From Chromohalobacter marismortui (lineage in GTDB: Bacteria; Pseudomonadota; Gammaproteobacteria; Pseudomonadales; Halomonadaceae), in the NCBI RefSeq assembly GCF_004364315.1, contig NZ_SOBR01000002.1:186001-250000 (forward strand): 64,000 bases of DNA, given 5' to 3'. Positions 3,591 to 37,347 of the stretch are shown here, piece after piece (the first letter of the stretch is position 1; every line of letters starts with the position of its first letter). The translations under genes and the position numbers were made by a program. The notes under the pieces were generated by a model. That model was not told where the DNA came from. It saw nothing but the letters and a program-made list of their open reading frames with translations, and did not search any database.

Positions 3591-5570
3591 TTACGCCTGC
3601 ATCTCCAGCCGTTTATGGTGCTCGCGCTCAATACGTTCGACTTCCGCCGCCGGGACGTAGTAGTCGATATCGTCATTGAAGATCCGGAACATGAAGGCCA
3701 CGAACATGCCAACCGCGCTAACACCGGCAAGCCACCAGATGTGCCAGACCAATGCGAACCCGAACACAATGCTGATCAGACCGATGATTGGCCCCGCCAC
3801 GGTGTTCTTGGGCATATGAATATCTTCGTACTGCGTCGGCTTGTCCGCTGCCATGCCCTTCTCTTTCTTCGCTTCCCAGAAGGCATCCACGGAGCCGACA
3901 TGAGGAAGATGCGCGAAGTTGTAGAACGGCGCCGGCGACGACGTGGACCACTCCAGGGTACGCGCGTCCCATGGATCGCCCGTGATGTCGGCGTTTTTCT
4001 CGCGATCGCGAATGCTGACGATGAACTGAATCACGGTGCTGGCGATACCGCACAGGATACACACGGCACCGACCCACGCCACGATCATGAACGGCTGCCA
4101 CTCAGGGTTGGCATACGACTGCATACGGCGTACCGCCCCCATGAAGCTCAGGATATAAAGCGGCATGAAGGCCAGGTAAAAGCCGACGATCCAGAACCAG
4201 AAGGAGCGCTTGCCCCACTTCTCATCGAGCTTGAAGCCAAACGCTTTCGGGAACCAGTAGGTCAGGCCCGCCAGCATGCCGAACACCACGCCGCCGATGA
4301 TGACGTTGTGGAAGTGGGCGATGACGAACAGGCTGTTGTGCAGCACGAAGTTTGCACCGGGGACCGCCAGCATCACACCGGTCATGCCACCGATGGTAAA
4401 GGTGATGATGAAGCCCAGCGTCCACAGTACCGGCGACGTGAACTCCAGACGCCCACGGTACATGGTGAACAGCCAGTTGAAGATCTTCACGCCGGTGGGA
4501 ATGGCGATGATCATCGTCGCGATCCCGAAGAAGGCGTTGACGTTGGCGCCCGCCCCCATGGTGAAGAAGTGGTGCAACCAGACGACGAACGACAGGACCG
4601 TAATACACGCCGTCGCCCAGACCATGGTGTTGTAGCCGAACAACCGCTTCTTGGCGAAGGTCGCGATGACCTCGGAGAACACCCCGAACGCCGGCAGGAT
4701 GAGAATGTACACCTCAGGATGGCCCCAGGCCCAGATGAGGTTGACGTACATCATCATGTTGCCGCCCATATCGTTGGTGAAGAAATGCATCCCCAGGTAA
4801 CGATCGAGCGTCAGCAGCGCGATGGTCGCGGTCAGAATCGGGAAAGAGGCAATGATGAGGATGTTCGCGCACAGCGACGTCCAGGTGAAGATCGGCATAC
4901 GGAACAGCGTCATGCCCTTGGTACGCATCTTCAGGATGGTGACGAAGAAGTTGATACCGGTCAGGGTGGTCCCGATCCCCGATATCTGCAGTCCCCATAT
5001 CCAGTAATCGACCCCCACGCCGGGACTGTACTTGATTCCCGATAATGGTGCATAGGCCAGCCAACCGGTCTTGCCATACTCACCGATGACCAGCGACACC
5101 ATGGTCAATATGACACCGGCCATGAACAGCCAGAAACTCAGGTTGTTCATGAACGGGAAGGCCACGTCACGCGCACCGATCTGCAGCGGCACGACCAGGT
5201 TCATCAGACCGATGACCATGGGCATGGCCACGAAGAAGATCATGATCACACCGTGGGCGGTGAAGATCTGATCGTAGTGCTCGGGGGGAAGGTAGCCCTC
5301 GGCTCCGCCGGCGGCCAGAGCCTGCTGGGTACGCATCATGATGGCGTCGGCGAAGCCACGCAGCAGCATGACCAGGGCCACGATGAAATACATGATGCCC
5401 AGTTTTTTATGGTCAATGGATGTGAGCCATTCCGTCCACAGCCATTTCCACTTCTTGAAATACGTCAGCAAACCGACGATGGCCAAGCCACCGAGGGCCA
5501 TCACGATAGCCGTCACGACGATGATCGGCTCGTGATAGGGAATATCGTCAAGTCCAAGTTTTCCGAACAT
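3591..5570 (-). CDS. cyoB: Cytochrome bo3 ubiquinol oxidase subunit I CyoB
   Basis: Catalytic subunit of the terminal oxidase: it oxidises ubiquinol, reduces O2 to water and pumps protons across the inner membrane. The 659-residue length matches the family. The Cu(B)/active-site segment [17 protein letters not shown] carries the His-Tyr pair, and [14 protein letters not shown] carries the histidines for the high-spin heme and low-spin heme b. About 14-15 hydrophobic helices are apparent. The gene is the second of a leftward cyoABCDE operon. Long open frames on the opposite strand of this gene are shadows caused by G+C-rich codon use. Confidence 0.98.
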
Positions 5571-5574
5571 AATG

Positions 5575-6483
5575 TTACTCCGCTGCCTCTGCGCTCATGG
5601 CCTTCTCGCCATGGCCTTCGCCGTGCCCGCTTTGCCCGCTGCCACCTTTGAAGCTCTGGATGATATTGCGGTAAAGGTTAGGCGTTACGTCGGAGAAATA
5701 TTCCACCGGGTGATCCGTGGAGGGTTCCGCCAACTCCTGATAGCTCCCTTTGAAAGAAAGCGTCTGGGGTGCTTGGCCGACCTTGTCGACCCAGTCTTCG
5801 AAGTCGTCCTTGGACAAGGCGAGCGCATCGAACGTCATCTCCGAGAAGCCTCTGCCACTGTAGTTGGACGACTTGCCGGCGAAGACGCCAGTCTCGTTCG
5901 CCACCAGGTACACGTCGTTGTCCATGCCGGCCATGGCGTAGATTTGGCTACCCAGGGTAGGAATGAAGAAAGAATTCATGACCGAGGCCGAGGTCACACG
6001 GAAGTGCACCGGCACATCGACGGGCATGGCGACTTGGTTGACCGTGGCAATCCCTTGCTTGGGATAGATGAACAGCCATTTCCAGTCCAGGGCGACGACC
6101 TGGACCTCCATGGTCTCGCTCGCTGGCGCGAGCGGCTTGTGCGGATCCAACGAGTGTGAAGTCTTCCAGGTAATGATCCCCAGAAACAGGATGATGATGC
6201 AGGGCACGAGCCACACCACCACTTCGATCTTGTTGGAGTGCGCCCAATCCGGCAGGTATTTGGCGGCATGGTTGCTATGCCGATACTTCCAGGCAAAGAC
6301 CACGGTCATGACGATGACCGGGATCACCACGATCATCATCAACCAGAAGGCCGTGATGATCAGCGACTTCAGCTGTTCCCCGATCAGGCCTTTCGGGTCC
6401 ACCAGCGCCGCGTCACAACCACTCAGCAACACTGCGATCAAAGGTAGGACACCGAGCCATCCCAGGTTCTTCTTCATTCTCAT
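5575..6483 (-). CDS. cyoA: Cytochrome bo3 ubiquinol oxidase subunit II CyoA (lipoprotein)
   Basis: Subunit II of the quinol oxidase, 302 residues. A signal peptide ends in the lipobox LLSGC, so Cys23 is the likely lipidation site. Two transmembrane helices follow (about residues 40-65 and 85-110), then a periplasmic cupredoxin-like domain (about 120-230). As expected for quinol rather than cytochrome c oxidases, the CuA ligand set is not apparent. The tail is rich in Gly, His and Glu. It is the first gene of the operon, so the promoter should lie in 6484-7011. Confidence 0.96.
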
Positions 6484-7011
6484 TGCATGGCCTCACTCAA
6501 GCATGGGAAGACGTTGCAGCGCTTGCTCATTGAATGCTTTCCTCCGCTAGCGACCCGTTGAACTCGACAGTCAGGAGGGATGGCAAATTCGCCGGCGGAA
6601 CACGAGCGACTTGCAGTGTGTCCGAGCGGTCATGTATGACGGCCTGACCGCTTGGACACGCCCAATGATTTGCATCCCGGCATGCTGCCGAATCCCAGCT
6701 GCCAATAACACGAGTATTATGCACTCTAAAGGTTGGGCATACCGCGCATGCTAGGAGATGACATGGGGCTTCGCCATCGGTGCGCATGCATCGCTTACGC
6801 CCTTGCGTCCCTGACCTGCCTGCAATACCGCCATTAGCCGATAGATCGCAAGCAGGGAAGGCCGACGGGGCGGCATTCTGAAGCAAAATCAGGTGAAATA
6901 GAAGCGACCATTTGCCGCAGTCGTGTCACACCCCACGCCTCTCGTCCGGGCAGGTGCGCCTACGATTGTAGGGGGTAGCGCAGCGCGCCTCAACGATCTC
7001 ATCGCCAGGCA
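6484..7011. other. Non-coding stretch ahead of cyoA
   Basis: This 528-base region separates the leftward cyo operon from the leftward J-domain pair and should hold the cyo promoter and the terminator of the upstream pair. I found a 42-base inverted repeat (listed separately) but no convincing -35/-10 pair and no FNR-type box. A 119-codon minus-strand frame (6527-6886) has no recognisable features and is not called. Two tiny ORFs with Shine-Dalgarno-like sequences (from 6580 and 6763) are too short to support. Confidence 0.5.
6618..6659. repeat. Long inverted repeat in the cyo leader
   Basis: GTGTCCGAGCGGTCA (6618-6632) and TGACCGCTTGGACAC (6645-6659) pair over 15 positions around a 12-base centre. 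The single departure is G-T, which is a wobble pair in a plus-strand RNA but an A-C mismatch in a cyo-direction RNA. It sits 135 bases upstream of the cyoA start. It could be an operator, a terminator arm or a structured leader. Confidence 0.6.
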
Positions 7012-8578: not shown

Positions 8579-10834
8579 TCAGCTCGTATCCGCTGGCGCG
8601 TCGCTCGCCACGCCACTGGTCGATGGCGCCTGCTCGGCCGCGGCCGGCAAACGTCCCGACGCATCCGATGCCTGTTCGAGGCTCACGCTCATGCGTGGCA
8701 TCGCGAGTTCCACGCCCAATTCATCGAAACGCCGCTTGAGACGCAAGTTGAAAGCCCGTGCCACGTCCCACTGCATGACCGGAGCCGTGCGCATACGCAC
8801 GCGCAGGATCGCCGCGCCGGCATCGAAACTTTCCACGCCCTGAAGCTCCAACGGCGACCAAATATAGTGTCGCATCATCGGATCGCGACGCAGCTCTTCG
8901 GCCACCTCCCTCACGATGGCAATCGCATCGTCGATCTGCATATGGTGCGCCACGCGAATGCGCAGCAGCGCGACCCCGAATTCACGTGAGAAATTCTGGA
9001 TCCCCTTGATCTGGCTAAAAGGGATCGTATGCACGATGCCATCCAGGTCACGCAGGCGCACGGTGCGTAGACTCAACCCCTCGACCGTCCCCATATGGCC
9101 GCTCAGGTCAACGAAGTCGTCGATGGCCAACGAGTCTTCGATGAGGATGAAAAGCCCCGTGATCAAATCCTGGACCAGCGTCTGGGCACCAAATCCCACC
9201 GCCAGACCGATCACCCCGGCCCCGGCCAGCAGCGGCGTCACGTTGACCCCCAGGTTGGCCAACGCCACGATGAAGGCAATGATCACGATGGTCGCGAAGA
9301 CCACATTGCGAATCAGCGGTGTAATGGTCTGTGCCCGCGTGCTCTGCGCGCGCCCGCTACGTCCCCGCTTGGAAGATAACAACGCCCGCTCGATCGCGGT
9401 ATCGGCGAGAATCCAGACCAGCCACGCCAGCAGCAGCGTCATGCCGATACTGATCAACGACTGGCCGATGCGCTGGCTGATGCCTTCGTCGCTACCAAAA
9501 ACCAACAGCGACAAGCCCCAGACACGCATCGCCAACTCGGCGAAGACCACCCAACTCATCAAGTGCGCCAGGGTGTAGCCGAAGCGTACCAGGCGCCGTC
9601 GATACTGTGATTGGCGACGCACCTTGGAAGGCTGCTCGGCATGGCGGTGAATCAAACCATTGACGATCAAGGTCACCACCAACAACCCGGCGGTGACGAT
9701 GGCCTTGGCGAACGCACTGCGCGAGTCACCTTCGGAGGTCAGGATGGCGATCAGCGAGACCACGACCATGAGCAGAACCGGCATATGCCATACCGTTCCC
9801 ACCACTTGAATCAACTCACTGCTGGCACGCTTATCGCGCCGGTAACGATAGGGACGATTGCGGATCAGGTGCTTGATGGGACGCTTGAACCGGAGGGCGA
9901 ACGCCCCCGTCAACAAGGCCGCCGTGACGTTGGCCAGCATGGAGACCACCTCCGCCAGTGAGGCCCCCAGGGTCGAGCGCAGTTCCGAGGCATTCGCGGC
10001 GTCGCCCAACGCGACTAGCGCACCGATGACGAATAGCCAACGCGCGGCGCGACGATGCAGAATGCGCAAGGCAACCCGTCGATGACCATTGGCGAAAAGC
10101 GAAAAAACGACCTCGCAAACGGCGGTGAACAAAATACCGCACAGGGTGATGTAAGCGATCACCATCGCCAATGTCTTCCCCAGCGTGGACGTCATGCCAT
10201 GCACCACGCCCAGCGTCATCCCGAACGCGAGCCCCCAGGGGAGCAAGCGACGCAGCATGTGACGTATCAGCATCCAAGTGCTCGGCTCAGCGCTGAGCGT
10301 GAGCTGCATATTCAAGCGTTTGGCCAAACTGCGCCCGCCGAACACCATCAACGCCGCGCTGCCCCCCCACAATCCCAGCACCCAGGCAAAATCGCCGACG
10401 AGATGCACAAGCGACTCCAGCGATGTGAATCGTTGCATCAGGGTATCGCCTGCTCGCGCGCTCAGGCGCCGCCAATACTCGAGAGGCGTCACGACGTCCC
10501 CGGCATCGCTCAGCGAGGTCAGCGACTCCGCAATGGCTCCCAGCAACCCACTCGGCGATTCGGCCTTAGCATCGGCGCCTTCCAGCGAGGCTCGCAAGGC
10601 GCGTAGCTGGGTGAGCAAGGCGTCTCGGCGCTGCTGGTCTTCAAGCATGGCGATGACACTATCCAATGATTCACGTGCCTGCTCATTCGATGGTGCCTGC
10701 GCGCCTTGGCTACCACCTGCGCCGGACAATGCCGCCATCGGCGATGCAATCTGCCCCCACGCAGCACTGGAAAACACCAGTAGCGCACACAACAAAACGA
10801 GCCATCGGCCCCAATGCGCCGCTCTCTTGTCCAT
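8579..10834 (-). CDS. Large MscS-family mechanosensitive channel (YbiO-like)
   Basis: Predicted inner-membrane channel that opens under membrane tension to release solutes during osmotic downshock. The 751-residue protein has a signal peptide (cut near SSAAWG-Q), a periplasmic N-terminal region with a helical segment, many transmembrane helices, and a C-terminal MscS domain. The pore-lining segment is clear (GVIGLAVGFGAQTLVQDLI), followed by the beta domain (VDLSGHMGTVEGLSLRTVRL). The extended N terminus resembles E. coli YbiO more than the minimal MscS. The ATG at 10834 is preferred to one 105 bases upstream because GAGGTG precedes it and it yields a clean signal peptide. Such a channel would suit a halophile facing dilution. 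Confidence 0.88.
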   Translation of the reverse strand: MDKRAAHWGRWLVLLCALLVFSSAAWGQIASPMAALSGAGGSQGAQAPSNEQARESLDSVIAMLEDQQRRDALLTQLRALRASLEGADAKAESPSGLLGAIAESLTSLSDAGDVVTPLEYWRRLSARAGDTLMQRFTSLESLVHLVGDFAWVLGLWGGSAALMVFGGRSLAKRLNMQLTLSAEPSTWMLIRHMLRRLLPWGLAFGMTLGVVHGMTSTLGKTLAMVIAYITLCGILFTAVCEVVFSLFANGHRRVALRILHRRAARWLFVIGALVALGDAANASELRSTLGASLAEVVSMLANVTAALLTGAFALRFKRPIKHLIRNRPYRYRRDKRASSELIQVVGTVWHMPVLLMVVVSLIAILTSEGDSRSAFAKAIVTAGLLVVTLIVNGLIHRHAEQPSKVRRQSQYRRRLVRFGYTLAHLMSWVVFAELAMRVWGLSLLVFGSDEGISQRIGQSLISIGMTLLLAWLVWILADTAIERALLSSKRGRSGRAQSTRAQTITPLIRNVVFATIVIIAFIVALANLGVNVTPLLAGAGVIGLAVGFGAQTLVQDLITGLFILIEDSLAIDDFVDLSGHMGTVEGLSLRTVRLRDLDGIVHTIPFSQIKGIQNFSREFGVALLRIRVAHHMQIDDAIAIVREVAEELRRDPMMRHYIWSPLELQGVESFDAGAAILRVRMRTAPVMQWDVARAFNLRLKRRFDELGVELAMPRMSVSLEQASDASGRLPAAAEQAPSTSGVASDAPADTS

Positions 10835-10972: not shown

Positions 10973-14176
<3,204 letters not shown>

Positions 14177-30659: not shown

Positions 30660-32315
30660 ATGTTCCAACTCACGCGCAGCGTCACCTGGCGCGCTCTCGA
30701 ACGTCTCCACCGCGAGACCGCCAATGATCGCATCAGTGATTACTTCGCCGCCGATCCCCAACGCTTCGAGAAGATGAGCCTGCGTGTCGGTGGCCTGTTC
30801 CTGGATTACTCCAAGCATCATGTCTCCGATGCCGTGCTCGCCAAACTGATCGAACTCGCCGATCACTCGGCGCTGGTGCAACGCCGCGCGCAGATGTTTT
30901 CCGGCGACATCATCAACGTTACCGAGGACCGCCCGGTCCTGCACACCGCCTTGCGTCATCTGGGCGACGAGCCGGTCTACGCCGATGGCAAGAACGTCAT
31001 GCCCGAGATTCAGAGCACGCGCGAGCAGATCAGGCGCTTCTCGGAAGAAGTACGCAGCGGCGAGTGGAAGGGCTACAGCGGCGAACGCATCAAGGACGTC
31101 GTCAACATCGGCATCGGCGGCTCCGACCTGGGGCCTAACATGGCCTGCCGCGCGCTGCTCAAACACCGCAACGGCGAACTCAATTTTCACTTCGTCTCCA
31201 ACGTCGACGGCGCACACATTCAGAAAGTGCTGAGAGCGCTCGACCCGGCGACCACGCTATTCATCGTCTCGACCAAGACCTTTTCCACCCAAGAGACGCT
31301 GCTCAACGCCAAGACCGCGCGGCGCTGGTTCCTCGACAATGCCGGCGAAGATGCCGATGTCGGCGCGCACTTCATCGCTGCCTCGACCAATCGCAAGGCG
31401 GCGATGGAATTCGGCATCCGCGAGGAAAACGTCTTCGAATTCTGGGCCTGGGTCGGCGGGCGCTACTCGATGTGGTCGTCGATCGGCCTCCCCATCGCGT
31501 TATCCATCGGCTACGACGGCTTCATGGAACTCCTCGAAGGGGCCTACGAGATGGACCAGCACTTCATCGAGGCGCCGTTCGAGAAGAACATGCCGGTACT
31601 CATGGCGTTGATCGGCATCTGGTACATCAACTTCATCGGTGCCGAAACGCATGCCATCGTGCCTTACGATCAGGCCTTGCATCAGCTACCGTCGTTTCTC
31701 CAGCAGCTCGACATGGAGTCCAACGGTAAGTCGGTGGATATTTTCGGTCAGCCGGTGAATTACAAGACCGGCCCCATCGTCTGGGGACAGACGGGCTCCA
31801 ACGGGCAGCATGCGTTTTTCCAGCTGCTCCACCAGGGCACGCGCTACGTGCCCATCGACTTCATCGCCTCGCTCAAGCCCGAGCCGGAATTCGAGGATCA
31901 CCATTTCGCGCTGCTCACCAACATGCTGGCGCAGGCCAACGCCTTCATGGAAGGCAGCCAGGACGGGGGCCAGCTCGACCCCTACAGCTGCCCAGGCAAC
32001 CGCCCCTCGAGCACACTACTGCTCGATGAGTTGACACCCAAGAATCTGGGCGCGTTGATCGCCTTGTACGAACATAAAGTCTTCGTCCAGGGCGTGATCT
32101 GGAACATCAACTCCTTCGACCAATGGGGCGTGCAGCTCGGCAAGCGTATCGCCGGCGAGATCAGCGAACGCATCGATACCAACGCCGCGGATTTCGATGT
32201 GTCTACGCAAGGGCTGCTGTCGCTGGTACGAGAGCACTTCCCCTCGCCTCAGGCCACATCGACGCCGGACGCCAAGAAACCAAGCGGCCGGAAACCAGGA
32301 GGAAAAACGTCATGA
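30660..32315 (+). CDS. pgi: Glucose-6-phosphate isomerase
   Basis: Interconverts glucose 6-phosphate and fructose 6-phosphate, and so lets fructose enter the Entner-Doudoroff pathway. The 551-residue length matches E. coli Pgi. Both family signatures are present: GGRYSMWSSIGLPIAL and GQTGSNGQHAFFQLLHQG, with the catalytic Glu/His regions. I start at 30660 because AAGAAGGA precedes it by about 7 bases and the protein then aligns with the family (MFQLTRSVTWRALERL); an ATG 18 bases upstream is less likely. A 30-residue Lys/Pro-rich tail follows the core. Its stop overlaps the fructokinase start by ATGA. Confidence 0.96.
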   Translation: MFQLTRSVTWRALERLHRETANDRISDYFAADPQRFEKMSLRVGGLFLDYSKHHVSDAVLAKLIELADHSALVQRRAQMFSGDIINVTEDRPVLHTALRHLGDEPVYADGKNVMPEIQSTREQIRRFSEEVRSGEWKGYSGERIKDVVNIGIGGSDLGPNMACRALLKHRNGELNFHFVSNVDGAHIQKVLRALDPATTLFIVSTKTFSTQETLLNAKTARRWFLDNAGEDADVGAHFIAASTNRKAAMEFGIREENVFEFWAWVGGRYSMWSSIGLPIALSIGYDGFMELLEGAYEMDQHFIEAPFEKNMPVLMALIGIWYINFIGAETHAIVPYDQALHQLPSFLQQLDMESNGKSVDIFGQPVNYKTGPIVWGQTGSNGQHAFFQLLHQGTRYVPIDFIASLKPEPEFEDHHFALLTNMLAQANAFMEGSQDGGQLDPYSCPGNRPSSTLLLDELTPKNLGALIALYEHKVFVQGVIWNINSFDQWGVQLGKRIAGEISERIDTNAADFDVSTQGLLSLVREHFPSPQATSTPDAKKPSGRKPGGKTS

Positions 32316-33283
32316 CACCGCTCATTGCCTTCGGCGAAGCGCTGGTCGACATGCTCTCCAACCGCCTGGATGGCGCCGCCGACGATCTCCCGGAAACGTT
32401 CACGCCCTATGCCGGCGGCGCCCCGGCCAATGTCGCCGTGGCCTGCGCCCGACTGGGACTGCCGAGCCGTTTCTTGGGCATGGTCGGCGACGATCGCTTC
32501 GGCGATTTTCTCGTCGAGGAGCTCGCGCGCCATGGTGTCTCGGTCGAGAACATTTGCCGCACGCGCGAGGCCCGCACGGCCCTGGCGTTCGTCTCGCGCG
32601 ATGCCCATGGCGAACGACGTTTCGACTTCTACCGCCCCCCCGCAGCCGACCTTCTTTATCGCCTCGAGCATCTTCCCACAGGTGTCTTCGCCGAGCCGGC
32701 GATCCTGCATCTGTGCAGTAACAGTCTCACCGATGAAGCGATCGCCGAGACCACGCTGAGCATCGCCGATATCGCGCGGCGTGGCGGTACCCTGATCAGT
32801 GTCGATGCCAATCTGCGTACCAACCTGTGGCCCGACAATCGCGTCGATATAGGCCGTGTCACGGCCTTGCTCGACCACGCGCACTTGCTCAAGCTCTCCC
32901 GCGACGAACTCGAGCTGCTGCGCGGCGATCATGACGTCGATTCCTGGTTGCAATGGCGCCTGGCAGCCGGCGTGCGGATGATCGTGATTACCGATGGGGC
33001 AGCGCCGGTCATCGTGCATCGGCTGGGCAAGGTGATTGACGTCATTCCCCCCGACGTGACGGCCGTGGACACCACCGCCGGGGGCGATGCCTTCGTGGGC
33101 GGTCTGCTGGCACAACTGGCCGAGCACGATGTCAACGCCGCCACGCTTGGCGACTGGTGTCAAGACGAAGCCCGCCTGCGCCACGCCGTCGAGCTCGCCT
33201 GCCGTTGTGGCGCCTTCGCCGTGACGCGGCCAGGTGCCTACTCGGCATTGCCCACCCGCGACGATCTCGACGCCATGTATTGA
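32312..33283 (+). CDS. PfkB-family carbohydrate kinase, probably fructokinase
   Basis: Predicted to phosphorylate a sugar, most likely fructose to fructose 6-phosphate, which Pgi from the preceding overlapping gene would convert onward. The 323-residue protein has the ribokinase fold: GEALVDML near the start, the signature GGAPANVAVACARLG (residues about 35-50), and the anion-hole/catalytic segment DTTAGGDAFVGGLLAQL. AGGAGG precedes the ATG inside the end of pgi. ScrK/cscK-like fructokinases share this pattern, but KDG or ribokinase activity cannot be excluded from sequence. Confidence 0.85.
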   Translation: MTPLIAFGEALVDMLSNRLDGAADDLPETFTPYAGGAPANVAVACARLGLPSRFLGMVGDDRFGDFLVEELARHGVSVENICRTREARTALAFVSRDAHGERRFDFYRPPAADLLYRLEHLPTGVFAEPAILHLCSNSLTDEAIAETTLSIADIARRGGTLISVDANLRTNLWPDNRVDIGRVTALLDHAHLLKLSRDELELLRGDHDVDSWLQWRLAAGVRMIVITDGAAPVIVHRLGKVIDVIPPDVTAVDTTAGGDAFVGGLLAQLAEHDVNAATLGDWCQDEARLRHAVELACRCGAFAVTRPGAYSALPTRDDLDAMY

Positions 33284-33290
33284 AACACGT

Positions 33291-33313
33291 CGAGCGCCCA
33301 CCTCGGGCGCTCG
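33291..33313. terminator. GC hairpin between fructokinase and csgG
   Basis: CGAGCGCCC-N5-GGGCGCTCG, a 9-bp perfect stem with no T-run, sits 7 bases past the fructokinase stop and before the convergent csgG end. The same nine-base stem recurs at 36695-36717 on the other side of the curli island. Confidence 0.5.
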
Positions 33314-33367
33314 CCATGCTGGTCGTCTCACATCCCCGGGCATGCGGGATATCCACGATGCCGTTCC

Positions 33368-34258
33368 CTACAATGACGCGGCAACGGCTTTATTCGCATT
33401 CACTGCGTCCAGATCATCTTCCAGTGTCTGAACCCGGTCGTAATATGTCTTGATCGCCTGCCTGCCTTTCTCGGCATCAGCAAATGACCAGGTGTCCTTT
33501 TCAGCCCCTTCGATAATAGTGGTGTAAACGGCCAGCTCAATCGCTTCTCGGACAGCTAGCTGTGGTGGGTCATTGCGAGTAAACCCTGCTTCCAGTTCGA
33601 AAAGCTCATCGACAGCGACATAGCGGAATATCGATCCCTGCACCAGAAAGGAGTAGATCTTCTTCGTAGTGGTAACGCTATTCAACACGCGCCCGGTCTT
33701 CACACTGACGAGGCGCATGTTGACCGTCACCAGATCGCTGCGGTATTCGGTATTGGCGCCGATGCCTAGATAGCGGGCGCCAACGCCGCCCGTGGTGAGA
33801 TTCGTTTCATAGGCGATGATCCCGCCTTCCACGATGACACCGGCAAATGTCAAAGGAGGTAACGGCGTGGCCGATGCACCGTTGAACTGCTGACGAGTGG
33901 ATTGAATGACTTGCCGCTCTCTAAGCAGATTGGGCAGCCCTCGACGCTCCATGACATTGAACCATTGGCCTTTTCCCGCTTTTTCCAAGACGTCCACCAT
34001 GATAGCGTCTGCGCCTTGCGTCACCGCCCGTGAATATTCCGCGAAGTTATCATTCGGCTTGTATTGCCCCGTCAAATCGGAAAACTCATACACGGCTATA
34101 TCGATCGGCCGCGCGGCAGCCGGCAGTTGTTCGAGCAACGATGATGTCTTGGTTTCCTGCACGAAGCCAGCGGGTTCCGATGGCATCATCTGGCCAGACA
34201 CACACCCGCCCATCAGCAGCAACGCGCTCAACCCAATAAGTCCCTTGATAATATTCAT
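33368..34258 (-). CDS. csgG: Curli secretion channel lipoprotein CsgG
   Basis: CsgG forms a nonameric pore in the outer membrane for export of curli subunits. The 296-residue protein has a lipoprotein signal peptide with lipobox MGGC (Cys19). Family blocks are present: IDIAVYEFSDLTGQYKPND, NVMERRGLPNLLRERQ, the constriction/transmembrane region GGIIAYETNLTTGGVGARYLGIG, and VTVNMRLVSVKTGRVLNSV. The C-terminal 40 residues (DRVQTLEDDLDAVNANK) are helical. It is the last gene of the leftward curli operon, downstream of csgF. Confidence 0.96.
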   Translation of the reverse strand: MNIIKGLIGLSALLLMGGCVSGQMMPSEPAGFVQETKTSSLLEQLPAAARPIDIAVYEFSDLTGQYKPNDNFAEYSRAVTQGADAIMVDVLEKAGKGQWFNVMERRGLPNLLRERQVIQSTRQQFNGASATPLPPLTFAGVIVEGGIIAYETNLTTGGVGARYLGIGANTEYRSDLVTVNMRLVSVKTGRVLNSVTTTKKIYSFLVQGSIFRYVAVDELFELEAGFTRNDPPQLAVREAIELAVYTTIIEGAEKDTWSFADAEKGRQAIKTYYDRVQTLEDDLDAVNANKAVAASL

Positions 34259-34303
34259 ACCCCACCCTTGAGTTTTTATAATATATAATTTATTGAATGA
34301 GCT

Positions 34304-34750
34304 TTACTGACCCACGGATGACCTGGGAATATTCACAACATTGGTGTTGATGCCATCCGAAATATTCACGACAACTCTGTCACCCACTGTCTCGTAAGAG
34401 ACCATGGCACCGTCCAATGAAAAGTTACCCGAGGGTGGAGCGCCATCCTGAAAAATCGCCTCCGAAAGTTGACTCGCCGAACCGGCGATCATGGTATTGC
34501 GTATGGCATCCGCAAACTTGTCGGCGGTCGTCTCTTCCTCGAACAAAGAGGAGTATTCATCGCCATCATCCTTGTATTGATTCTGCACGTCTGCCGTCTG
34601 CAGGAGATAATTTATATAAAACGGATCTCCTCCAAATGCAGGATTGATAGGTTGGTATACGAGATCGCCGGCCCACGCCCCGGGGGCGACACCAAGCGTT
34701 GCCAATAACACTCCGCCCAGGCAAAGACGAAAATTCACTCGACGCATCAT
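34304..34750 (-). CDS. csgF: Curli assembly factor CsgF
   Basis: CsgF is secreted and sits on the CsgG pore, helping to anchor the nucleator at the surface. The 148-residue protein has a signal peptide (cut near GAWA-GD). The mature N terminus GDLVYQPINPAFGG matches the CsgF motif whose first residues plug into CsgG. The rest (EEETTADKFADAIRNTMIAG, then a beta-rich tail) fits the family. GGAG precedes the first of two ATGs by 6 bases. It lies between the CsgB-like gene and csgG. Confidence 0.93.
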   Translation of the reverse strand: MMRRVNFRLCLGGVLLATLGVAPGAWAGDLVYQPINPAFGGDPFYINYLLQTADVQNQYKDDGDEYSSLFEEETTADKFADAIRNTMIAGSASQLSEAIFQDGAPPSGNFSLDGAMVSYETVGDRVVVNISDGINTNVVNIPRSSVGQ

Positions 34751-34774
34751 GACACTCTCCCTGCATATCGGATG

Positions 34775-35341
34775 TTATTGAGGAATCGCTTTACTGATAC
34801 GCCCGCGCGGCGTGTCCAGTACCACGGAAGCCTCATGCTCACTGCCGGAAAAAACCAAGGGGGGACGGTTCTGGATATTCTCGCCTCGCTGCAAATGCAG
34901 GATCTTTTTATTACCTCCCACCACGAAAATATCAGAGGTGAGAAGGCTTCCTTTCTGATCGACGACAATGGCATTGCGTCGACCTGTCAAACTTATATGC
35001 GACTCAAGATCATCTCCCACCTGGCGTTGGTAGGTTAGATTCCGGTCTCCCTGTGAACTCACCACGGCCCTGTTGCGATTCCCGTATTGCAGGGAGTAGG
35101 TCACATTACTCTTCTCGGGAGCGGAAAGAGAAAGGTCATCGAAGTATCCTGACTCGATGGCATTGATCAATCCTTCACCCGGGGTAGAGAAGCTGGCAAC
35201 CTGACGCTCATTGTCATAGGTCGTCCGCTCGGCCTCGGATATCTGCTCCACGAAGGCCAGGGACCCTTGCCCCATGGCCGCGGGCAACACCGGTATCATG
35301 GCCACTAGTACAAGGAAGCCAAGCACTGCGGGATGTTTCAT
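34775..35341 (-). CDS. csgB: Curlin-repeat protein, CsgB-like (probable nucleator)
   Basis: Exported 188-residue protein with a signal peptide (MKHPAVLGFLVLVAMIPVLPAAMG-Q). The middle and C-terminal parts carry degenerate curlin-type repeats: LQYGNRNRAVVSSQGDRN, then ISLTGRRNAIVVDQKG. This is the N-x-A-V-x-x-Q-G pattern of CsgB/CsgA. The repeats are fewer and less regular than in csgA of this island, and a non-repeat N-terminal segment of about 80 residues precedes them, so it is larger than E. coli CsgB. A nucleator role is inferred from order in the operon. Confidence 0.7.
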   Translation of the reverse strand: MKHPAVLGFLVLVAMIPVLPAAMGQGSLAFVEQISEAERTTYDNERQVASFSTPGEGLINAIESGYFDDLSLSAPEKSNVTYSLQYGNRNRAVVSSQGDRNLTYQRQVGDDLESHISLTGRRNAIVVDQKGSLLTSDIFVVGGNKKILHLQRGENIQNRPPLVFSGSEHEASVVLDTPRGRISKAIPQ

Positions 35342-35383
35342 GATCTCTCTCCCATGTCACCATGCAAGCCTCAGGCATTGTGC

Positions 35384-35767
35384 CTAGATAGGACTCACGA
35401 CTTCTTCTGCTTCACAAGTGGAACCCGTAAGCCGCTCGGTCACCTCCAAGTGAAACTCCAACCAACCGGCCGGTGCCAGACGAAACTGCACGCGAGACGT
35501 GATCGCTTGTTCACCCGGCTGAAGCCGTTGAGAACCGGATTGCTCGATCGTGCCCGAGCCCCCCGGGTCAATCTTTAGCGTTTTCAGAACATAGTCCGCA
35601 CGCGTCGGTTTGACACTTTCGATAATACCCACTGCCGTCACGATATCGCCCTGCTGCTCTACCGCTATCCGGCAATACAGCTGGTTGAACACCTGCTGCC
35701 CCTCACTGGCAAGCGGATAAAAAAGCACGCAGGCGCATAGTAATTGCTTTACTTTGCAGGATATCAT
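35384..35767 (-). CDS. Curli assembly/inhibitor protein, CsgH (CsgC)-like
   Basis: Exported protein of 127 residues with a signal peptide and an Ig-like beta-sandwich signature. The mature part begins YCRIAVEQQGDIVTAVG and contains the SGTIEQSG segment, then RLQPGEQA, ending near a second Cys (GSTCEAEE). Two widely spaced cysteines could form a disulfide. This layout fits CsgH, the periplasmic protein that, like CsgC, is known to keep curlin subunits from polymerising too early. It does not resemble CsgE. Identity rests on pattern recognition, so it is a probable call. Confidence 0.65.
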   Translation of the reverse strand: MISCKVKQLLCACVLFYPLASEGQQVFNQLYCRIAVEQQGDIVTAVGIIESVKPTRADYVLKTLKIDPGGSGTIEQSGSQRLQPGEQAITSRVQFRLAPAGWLEFHLEVTERLTGSTCEAEEVVSPI

Positions 35768-35806
35768 GGCGCTCTCACAGTGCTTAACATGACTTACCGA
35801 TCAAGC

Positions 35807-35834
35807 TCCCCGGGCCACTACCAGCGCCCGGGGA
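35807..35834. promoter_or_regulatory. GC hairpin between csgA and the csgH-like gene
   Basis: TCCCCGGGC and GCCCGGGGA pair over 9 bases around a 10-base loop in the 86-base gap. There is no T-run. It could stop part of the transcription or protect the 3' end of csgA mRNA, giving more major subunit than accessory proteins. Confidence 0.5.
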
Positions 35835-35853
35835 TCAACACGCTCAGCCGACG

Positions 35854-36264
35854 TTAGTTCTTCTGAAGTGCGTTGAAGGAATTGCCATACCCATGCTGAG
35901 AGTGCACGGTGACGTTATAATCTCCGTACTGCCGTGCAATACCAGTATTACCAAAGCCACCCTGTTGGTAAGACATGGTGTTATGATTACCGTCTTGCAA
36001 CCCTGTCATCCTGTTGCCAAAACCGTACTGCTCTGCCTTGTTGACAAAGTTGTTGTCCCCTTTCTGCGTCAGATTAGCCTTATTGAAGCCACCATGCTGA
36101 ATGGCGCGATTCCCATTCGTGGCAATATCGTTGCCATCGCCTTCTTGCGTGGTATTGAAGGAGTTATGAGCTCCCACCTGGTTCATATAGACTTCGTTGC
36201 TGTCGGCAATGGCATAGCCGCTCATGACGGACAGAATACCTGCAGCCAGAATCAATTTCTTCAT
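35854..36264 (-). CDS. csgA: Major curlin subunit CsgA-like
   Basis: Predicted extracellular amyloid subunit of 136 residues. A signal peptide (MKKLILAAGILSVMSGYAIA) precedes a mature part built of about five imperfect 22-residue repeats with nine QxGxxN motifs (for example QVGAHN, QEGDGN, QKGDNN, QYGFGN, QHGYGN), the ladder typical of curlin. It is rich in Gly, Asn and Gln and has no cysteine. GAGGTG lies 6 bases before the ATG at 36264; a GTG 9 bases earlier overlaps that site and is rejected. It is the first gene of a leftward curli operon whose G+C content is visibly below that of its neighbours. Confidence 0.92.
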   Translation of the reverse strand: MKKLILAAGILSVMSGYAIADSNEVYMNQVGAHNSFNTTQEGDGNDIATNGNRAIQHGGFNKANLTQKGDNNFVNKAEQYGFGNRMTGLQDGNHNTMSYQQGGFGNTGIARQYGDYNVTVHSQHGYGNSFNALQKN

Positions 36265-36377
36265 TTCATTCACCTCTGCAACAATTATTATAACCCTCAG
36301 AGCCCTGGACCCCTGATCCCAGACTCACTCACGAGCAATTGATAATGTTCGAAACACTATCTTCACGCTCGATAACA

Positions 36378-36406
36378 ATTCTTGCCTCAATGTAAAAAAG
36401 CGTCAA
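36378..36406 (-). promoter_or_regulatory. Candidate sigma-70-type promoter of the curli operon
   Basis: On the minus strand TTGACG (36406-36401) and AAGAAT (36383-36378) are spaced by exactly 17 bases, about 115 bases upstream of csgA. A closer TATAAT (36292-36287) has no matching -35 and would leave a very short leader, but may be used by another sigma factor. Confidence 0.35.
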
Positions 36407-36691
36407 ACGACAAAAGACCCAAATACTTAAAAAAAAGATCTCAGAAAAGCAATCCGTTACCTTTAAAAAACAAACTACATTTCTCATACTCACTACCATT
36501 AAGCGCCTGCCAAAGGAGCAGACACGTTTTCAACAGCTTTTGAAATTCAAGACGTTACCCCTTGCCCCATGTCACTACTCCGTACCAGAGCGACCCACGC
36601 CGATGAGGAGGTTCGCGCACAGAAGTCACAGAAGTCTTTGAGAGGGGGCGGCACGCGACAAAGAGCTGCCTCGATACCAGGCACTGAAGCA

Positions 36692-36720
36692 CGACGAGCG
36701 CCCGTTAAGGGCGCTCGTCG
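36692..36720. terminator. 12-bp hairpin downstream of the pfpI-like gene
   Basis: CGACGAGCGCCC-N5-GGGCGCTCGTCG, a perfect 12-bp stem without a T-run, about 70 bases past the stop of the pfpI-like gene. It shares nine stem bases with the hairpin at 33291-33313. Confidence 0.5.
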
Positions 36721-36789
36721 CCTCCCCTACGGGAGCACTACAACGGGCATGTCGAACCGTTAGTGTTGCGCTGCGAAAGGGCGTAGAAC

Positions 36790-37347
36790 TTAAAGCAAGG
36801 CATTGAACTGCTTCAGCCATTCGGGATGCGCGGGCCATGCCGGGGCCGATACCAGGCGTCCGCAGGTAATCGCCTGATCGGCCCCGATCTCGGCGAAGTC
36901 ACCGCCCGCCAGCCGTACCTCGGGCGCACAAGCTGGATAGGCGGAGACGCGCCGACCGCTCAGTGATACCGCGGCGGCGAGCAACTGCGCGCCGTGGCAG
37001 ATGGCGGCCACGGGCTTGTCGGCTTCCATGAAATGGCGCACCAGCGCCAGGACACGCTCGTCGAGGCGCAGGTATTCGGGGGCACGCCCGCCCGGAATGA
37101 CCAGGGCGTCGTAGTGCGAAGCCTCGATATCGGCGAAACTGGCATTCAAGCTGAAATGATGGCCGGGTTTCTCGGAATAGGTCTGATCGCCCTCGAAGTC
37201 ATGAATCGCCGTCTTGATGCTGTCGCCCTTTTTCTTGTCCGGGCAGACGGCCTCGACGCCGTGCCCCATCGCTTGCAACGCTTGAAACGGCACCATGATC
37301 TCGTAGTCTTCGACGAAATCCCCGGCGATCAACAGTATACTGGCCAT
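36790..37347 (-). CDS. DJ-1/PfpI family protein
   Basis: Cytoplasmic protein of 185 residues with the DJ-1/PfpI fold. The nucleophile elbow [12 protein letters not shown] contains the conserved Cys-His pair, and [16 protein letters not shown] is the family's upstream motif with its conserved Glu region. Members act as glyoxalase III, as protein or nucleotide repair factors, or as proteases; YhbO/PfpI-like proteins are the closest type. The individual activity cannot be decided. It appears monocistronic, with a hairpin after it. Confidence 0.88.

Follow-up and report, generated by a model that had tools for sequence, protein, structure and literature searches.

Introduction

The textbook curli system of Escherichia coli relies on a gate protein, CsgE. 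A CsgE-less, csgH-bearing type is described from Alphaproteobacteria, with operons that lack csgC, csgD and csgE (PMC3521004). In E. coli, deletion of csgE abolishes the Congo red phenotype, over-expression of CsgG restores Congo red binding without CsgE, and low-efficiency entry by diffusion has been suggested for the situation when CsgE is missing (PMC6957492). Here we analyze a stretch of 64 kb (the window; G000:C2:186001-250000) from the genome of Chromohalobacter marismortui (G000; 3.55 Mb, completeness 99.99%), which holds five curli genes in the order csgA-csgH-csgB-csgF-csgG. With a probability of about 80%, we read them as a complete CsgE-less csgH-type curli (type VIII secretion) operon that was acquired horizontally and inserted between a pfkB gene and a DJ-1 gene. 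Gene content, the lack of a CsgE match, the insertion, the kinship of the proteins and the predicted fold of CsgH carry this reading.

By its sequence the operon appears to belong to the alphaproteobacterial csgH type (PMC3521004): csgH lies beside the curlin gene, csgE is absent, and the placement of CsgG and CsgF fits. It differs from that type in being found in a gammaproteobacterial family and at four chromosomal sites. The identical A-H-B-F-G order is found in Oricola nitratireducens (locus L080, 3452-10372), there twice in tandem; the contig ends within the second csgG. With E. coli csgBAC-csgDEFG the operon shares CsgA-type repeats, a CsgB-like protein, the CsgF plug motif, the CsgG pore and a chaperone of the CsgC fold, but it is a single five-gene operon with no csgE and no local csgD, CsgH takes the place of CsgC, CsgA lacks an N22-like stretch, and the CsgG eyelet is longer and acidic. 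With no CsgE match over the cut-off in the genome, the system is not of the CsgE-gated E. coli type.

Two further kinds of curli occur in the same family, Halomonadaceae. The CsgE-containing kind (99 of 275 genomes) also has CsgF in 97 of the 99, but its CsgG and CsgF fall into separate groups, and its eyelet loop has five uncharged residues in all 18 examined, against six, with acidic side chains, here. The other kind is a second CsgE-less type with the order F-G-curlin-curlin (G055, G214, G224). Like the operon in the window it has no CsgE in the locus and its CsgG lies in the same large clade, but it has no CsgH over the cut-off, another gene order and a seven-residue eyelet loop. G055 (locus L063) has this type only; G214 (L072) and G224 (L073), unlike G000, additionally have a CsgE-type locus.

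Results

The csgA-csgH-csgB-csgF-csgG operon

Five consecutive open reading frames (ORFs), all open, occupy 33368-36264 on the minus strand, preceded by a stretch of low G+C:

35854..36264, minus strand, csgA, CsgA-like major curlin (ORF, profile and repeat motifs)
35384..35767, minus strand, csgH, probable periplasmic chaperone against amyloid formation, CsgC/CsgH fold (profile, predicted model)
34775..35341, minus strand, csgB-like minor curlin, probable nucleator (profile)
34304..34750, minus strand, csgF (profile, alignment to CsgF of 6l7a)
33368..34258, minus strand, csgG, lipoprotein secretion pore (profile, alignment to 6lqh)
36274..36788, no strand, low-G+C stretch 5' of csgA, probable promoter region (G+C; Rfam and Pfam searches)

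The intergenic gaps are 86 (csgA/csgH), 42 (csgH/csgB), 24 (csgB/csgF) and 45 bases (csgF/csgG), and all five genes align over their full length with eight other A-H-B-F-G loci in the family. CsgG matches PF03783 with an E value of 6.6e-58, and a profile made from the nine loci aligns to the solved CsgG 6lqh (E 3.7e-63). CsgF matches PF10614 (E 3.5e-26), Curlin_rpt is above its cut-off in both CsgA and the CsgB-like protein (E about 1e-5), and CsgH scores 48.3 bits with NF041112 (cut-off 35) and 20.7 bits with Pfam PF21112, under the cut-off of 27 for that model. Over the whole genome the profiles find one CsgG, one CsgF and one CsgH over the cut-off. The homologues suggest that the operon would function as a curli system.

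In the region 36274-36788 Rfam gave no match and a short ORF gave no Pfam match. A promoter and terminator scan returned candidate sites in numbers not above those in shuffled sequences, and no clear conserved promoter motif was found.

CsgA has 136 amino acids from the ATG at 36264, which makes it the second shortest among the nine loci; a GTG at 36273 is a possible alternative start. It carries nine Q-x-G/A-x-x-N motifs. With the mature start placed by a crude signal-peptide rule, the mature protein opens with a conserved D-x-N-E-x-Y, and in 9/9 loci the first repeat motif stands at about residue 9-11. The N22 stretch by which E. coli CsgA binds CsgG (PMC7217966, PMC6957492) has no counterpart of the E. 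coli type here. We considered this as a mark of CsgE loss and rejected it, as the curlins of L087 and L120 also start almost at the repeats, and the L087 genome has CsgE and the L120 locus a CsgE-like ORF.

CsgH is distinguished from CsgC by two distant cysteines in place of a C-x-C motif (PMC4838910), and the protein in the window has this spacing, with C32 and C118 far apart and invariant in 9/9 loci. Its predicted model has seven strands (pLDDT 84, with confident residues at about 28-127) and is best matched by 2n59 (CsgH of Rhodopseudomonas palustris; Foldseek E 4e-8, Z 12.1) and 2xsk (CsgC of E. coli; E 1.5e-5, Z 13.4), which predicts a CsgC/CsgH fold. The N-terminal part of the CsgB-like protein is non-repeat and conserved. 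In E. coli the N-terminal segment of CsgF lines or plugs the CsgG pore (PMC7304575), and CsgF in the window keeps this CsgG-binding segment (NPxFGG). At the eyelet position of CsgF, E. coli has Asn36 and the protein in the window Phe44. This difference was tried as a further mark of CsgE loss and discarded, since CsgE-containing members of the family commonly have Phe or Leu there as well.

No CsgE match in the genome and no csgD-like gene in the window

Searching the whole G000 genome with the CsgE model PF10627 gave nothing over the cut-off of 25, the best match having an E value of 0.51 and 12.2 bits. This weak match, at C2:420166 (41 of 105 positions), was put down to chance after inspection of the ORFs there. 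Absence of CsgE was judged by PF10627 only, because a local CsgE profile misses divergent CsgE. LuxR-type (GerE) domains number nine in the genome and none in the window, with no CsgD profile search made, so that there is no csgD-like gene nearby; a CsgD profile was avoided because the CsgD model of PMC3521004 is stated there to give about 1% correct hits. An earlier, sequence-only reading of the stretch had named five leftward genes for a curlin, a CsgH/CsgC-like protein, a CsgB-like protein, CsgF and CsgG, with csgE and csgD missing from the cluster. The intact ORFs and the family profiles bear out the gene content, and both absences hold as well, that of csgE across the genome and that of csgD across the window.

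Relatives of the operon

Among the 275 Halomonadaceae genomes surveyed, CsgF is present in 107 and CsgE in 99. CsgF accompanies CsgE in 97 of the 99, the exceptions being G218 and G226, which have CsgE and no CsgF match. CsgF occurs without CsgE in ten family genomes: nine, in four genera, carry A-H-B-F-G in that order, and the tenth is G055. Within the genus (10 genomes) CsgF is found in G000 only. The flanks of the four genus groups (the window, L064, L071 and the Onishia group) were compared for a shared element and have no match between groups, so that there are at least four insertion sites.

A CsgG similarity scan of the genome contigs with two peptide patterns gave 49 loci. Identity to CsgG of the window is 75% in Onishia, 63% in Halomonas sp. 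M20, 58% in Oricola, 55% in Afifella and 44-49% in Pseudovibrio, and 37-45% in Bacteroidota, Burkholderiaceae and others. For the CsgG tree, 56 sequences were hand-picked out of 114 distinct ones so as to be widely spread, and 14 identical copies and L123 (match too short) were excluded; the CsgF tree has 50 rows, with L081 and L175 excluded for their short CsgF. On the CsgG tree the nine loci form one clade (100/98) with Oricola next (99/91), inside one CsgE-less clade (99/96), and the CsgF tree has the matching groups (99/97, 99/94 and 99/95). On both trees the sampled CsgE-less loci, including those of Alphaproteobacteria, thus form a supported clade apart from the CsgE-type systems of Halomonadaceae.

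The insertion site

The operon lies on a segment that the congeners lack:

33332..36788, no strand, inserted segment, missing in 9/9 congeners (comparison with congeners)
32312..33283, plus strand, sugar kinase of the pfkB family, flanking the target site on the left (profile)
36790..37347, minus strand, DJ-1/PfpI protein, flanking the target site on the right (profile)
33266..33313, no strand, left copy of a 48-nt direct repeat, made of the pfkB end and the hairpin GAGCGCCC-ACCTC-GGGCGCTC (repeat search)
36670..36717, no strand, right copy of the 48-nt direct repeat, with the same kind of hairpin (repeat search)

Similarity to the congeners ends on the left at 33277-33331 and resumes on the right at 36788-36794, varying by congener. 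The pfkB gene is found in 10/10 genomes of the genus, and in 9/9 congeners the site is empty: the neighborhood is collinear, the alignable coding sequences of pfkB and the DJ-1 gene end about 35-74 bases apart, and the window is longer than the congener site by about 3.46 kb. One copy of the 48-nt repeat stands at the left edge of the island and the other near its right edge, and the two are 75% identical. The genome has only three exact copies of the hairpin pattern, two of which lie at the island, and a closely similar hairpin lies in the empty site of three of the nine congeners. It is possible that the edge repeats and the hairpin are a trace of how the island inserted.

G+C falls from 0.614 in the remainder of the window to 0.525 in the operon. 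Among 2.9-kb stretches across the window, the 24 with the lowest G+C (below 0.56) all begin within 32701-35001. Third-position G+C is 0.54-0.62 in the operon versus 0.74-0.77 in three neighboring genes. The sequence-only reading was right that the island is poorer in G+C than its flanks, and had taken this to suggest horizontal acquisition. The acquisition itself we accept because of the empty site, found when synteny was compared across the sister species, and the CsgG and CsgF trees. As a proof of transfer the low G+C is weak, because the same low value (0.506-0.546) is found in all nine family loci, six of which are in Onishia-type genomes with the operon at one common site, and because the Oricola operon, at 0.604, matches its own flanks at 0.606.

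Discussion

We find that the island is best explained as a csgH-type curli operon that reached this genus from outside, apparently out of a distant bacterial class. Several points weigh against that explanation. The CsgG tree carries a long-branch warning, with Oricola, Afifella, G414 and G422 (the latter two of the same phylum and another class) as long rows, and within the CsgE-less clade the trees disagree on Pseudovibrio, which joins the second CsgE-less family type on the CsgF tree, and on that type itself. CsgG is only 58% identical to that of Oricola, and the operon G+C is unlike that of this nearest known alphaproteobacterial relative (0.525 against 0.604), so that Oricola is not identifiable as the immediate donor. 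Neither an integrase nor a transposase was found in the island, where ten further ORFs gave no Pfam match, and with end repeats no more than 75% alike the insertion may be old. Unrelated Ig-like domains follow close behind as matches of the CsgH model (Z 11.3), and the CsgB-like protein has weak repeats and a model (pLDDT 53) too poor for structure search.

The sequence-only reading had also proposed export without a locally encoded CsgE. This stands, as no csgE was found in the genome, but systems of this kind are already described (PMC3521004) and it is not a new mechanism in itself. Since over-expressed CsgG rescues Congo red binding in E. coli, capless export is possible, and a CsgE-less system is plausible without any substitute.

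Alternatively, CsgH could replace CsgE directly, delivering CsgA to CsgG or capping the pore in addition to inhibiting amyloid formation, which we regard as improbable. It was suggested in PMC3521004 that csgH might fill the role of the missing csgE and csgF, and in the family CsgH over the cut-off and CsgE never share a genome (CsgH only in 9 of 275, exactly the nine A-H-B-F-G genomes, CsgE only in 99, both in 0). A sample of 398 genomes of the phylum has CsgH over the cut-off in 17: eight of other classes, all without CsgE, G000 itself, and eight other Gammaproteobacteria, all with CsgE. These last eight count against substitution, although they are probably CsgC-type. Weaker CsgH matches point the same way. 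Four more family genomes have them below the cut-off, two of which (G161 and G193) have CsgE, as do G287, G336, G447, G624 and G638 among seven more such genomes of the phylum sample; the first three of these five are of another class, so that beyond Halomonadaceae the mutual exclusion of CsgH and CsgE is not strict. No CsgH over the cut-off is found in G055, nor in G214 and G224 with their extra CsgE-less locus, and the CsgG tree shows a single change of CsgE status, which reduces the exclusion to one event. The distribution of the two proteins does not support CsgH as an obligate substitute for CsgE.

Two side observations concern the reach of CsgH. A profile of the nine CsgH sequences matched only G000 and G164 among 341 genomes of the order, some only of which are Halomonadaceae. 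Five loci of another class (L173, L174, L176, L177 and L181) have a curlin and CsgH, with no CsgF or CsgG by local profiles within 13-14 kb.

Ordinary gating would be retained if a divergent CsgE, or an unrelated periplasmic protein encoded elsewhere, capped CsgG. The loss of the Congo red phenotype on csgE deletion in E. coli (PMC6957492) speaks for such a protein, and sequence alone leaves room for an unrelated one with CsgE function. PF10627, however, recognizes CsgE in the 99 family genomes, in one Salegentibacter and in one Caballeronia, and it finds nothing over the cut-off here, in the eight other A-H-B-F-G genomes, in Oricola, in Afifella or in two Pseudovibrio genomes, and we give a hidden cap little credence. 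About as doubtful is a transferred island that is silent or decaying and makes no fibers: the low G+C, the lack of a local regulator and the short csgA would fit, but none of the five frames is interrupted, each can be aligned along its length with the other eight loci, and the operon has been kept as a unit in four genera. Finally, an operon ancestral in the genus and lost in nine sister species, with no transfer, is highly improbable. Finding it in a single genome of the ten might in principle reflect retention, but loss in nine species would have had to end at the same site each time, with junctions of about 35-74 bases, the operon has four different sites in four genera, and its sequences group with Alphaproteobacteria and not with the CsgE-type systems of its own family.

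The eyelet rings of E. coli CsgG are formed by Tyr51, Asn55 and Phe56 (PMC6957492), which align with Asn69, Glu74 and Tyr75 here, the numbering being carried over through the 6lqh profile alignment and L180 (same class, taken as Enterobacteriaceae). The eyelet loop of CsgG in the window, NDNFAE at residues 69-74, has six residues and is acidic. We compared loops with CsgE status for the 40 of the 56 CsgG-tree rows whose genomes were searched with PF10627, leaving out L072 and L073, whose genomes hold a second, CsgE-containing system, as well as three Bacteroidota rows with six-residue loops and two Pseudovibrio rows. A loop of six or seven residues is found in 15/15 CsgE-less CsgG proteins, versus six residues in 1/25 CsgE-bearing ones (Salegentibacter), and Asp or Glu in the loop in 15/15 versus 2/25 (Salegentibacter and Caballeronia). 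With a single change of CsgE status on the tree these counts are not independent; they reflect one evolutionary event and are a lead only.

We tentatively hypothesize that the altered, acidic eyelet compensates for the missing cap, though we would not expect this to prove right. A broader proposal is unlikely: that CsgE-less CsgG is a separate branch with a rebuilt constriction, a self-discriminating pore whose five-gene cassette crosses classes and can insert at gene-end hairpins. In this proposal the constriction would have gained one or two residues and acidic side chains, would carry no Pro at loop position two, and would have Arg or Lys in place of Thr or Ser two positions past the aromatic ring residue.

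For a csgH-type system of this kind, we infer every functional step from the proteins of E. coli and R. palustris. Sec would carry both subunits, CsgA and the CsgB-like protein, into the periplasm, where CsgH may guard the subunits against aggregation. The CsgG pore would then accept unfolded subunits without a CsgE cap, and CsgF in the pore mouth could link the release of subunits to nucleation by the CsgB-like protein, so that amyloid would form on the surface. A natural CsgG branch without CsgE and with a different eyelet offers a direct comparison for how CsgA crosses the outer membrane and for the role of CsgE. Capless pores may also interest nanopore builders.

The locus documents transfer of curli between classes, with clean insertion boundaries. 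This disagrees with the statement in PMC3521004 (2012) that horizontal transfer is a minor player for curli. CsgH-like sub-families have been reported in other classes, Gammaproteobacteria included (PMC4838910), and our literature search found no report of cross-class spread, of csgH curli in Halomonadaceae or of CsgE-less export beyond PMC3521004 and PMC4838910, in the parts of these papers available. New here is the documentation that this type has spread into Halomonadaceae; the difference in the eyelet is new as a lead.

Some minor observations concern the edges of the operon elsewhere and its possible carriers. In Halomonas sp. M20 (L064) the A-H-B-F-G operon lies between two copies of a 32-nt direct repeat (94%), at 6456-6487 and 11202-11233, and in an Onishia genome (L067) similar terminator-like pieces lie on either side of the operon, at 5240-5279 and 8760-8790. 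Curli, CsgF or CsgG are mentioned in two marine-phage papers (PMC7029224, PMC9004378), and such phages are possible carriers of curli genes.

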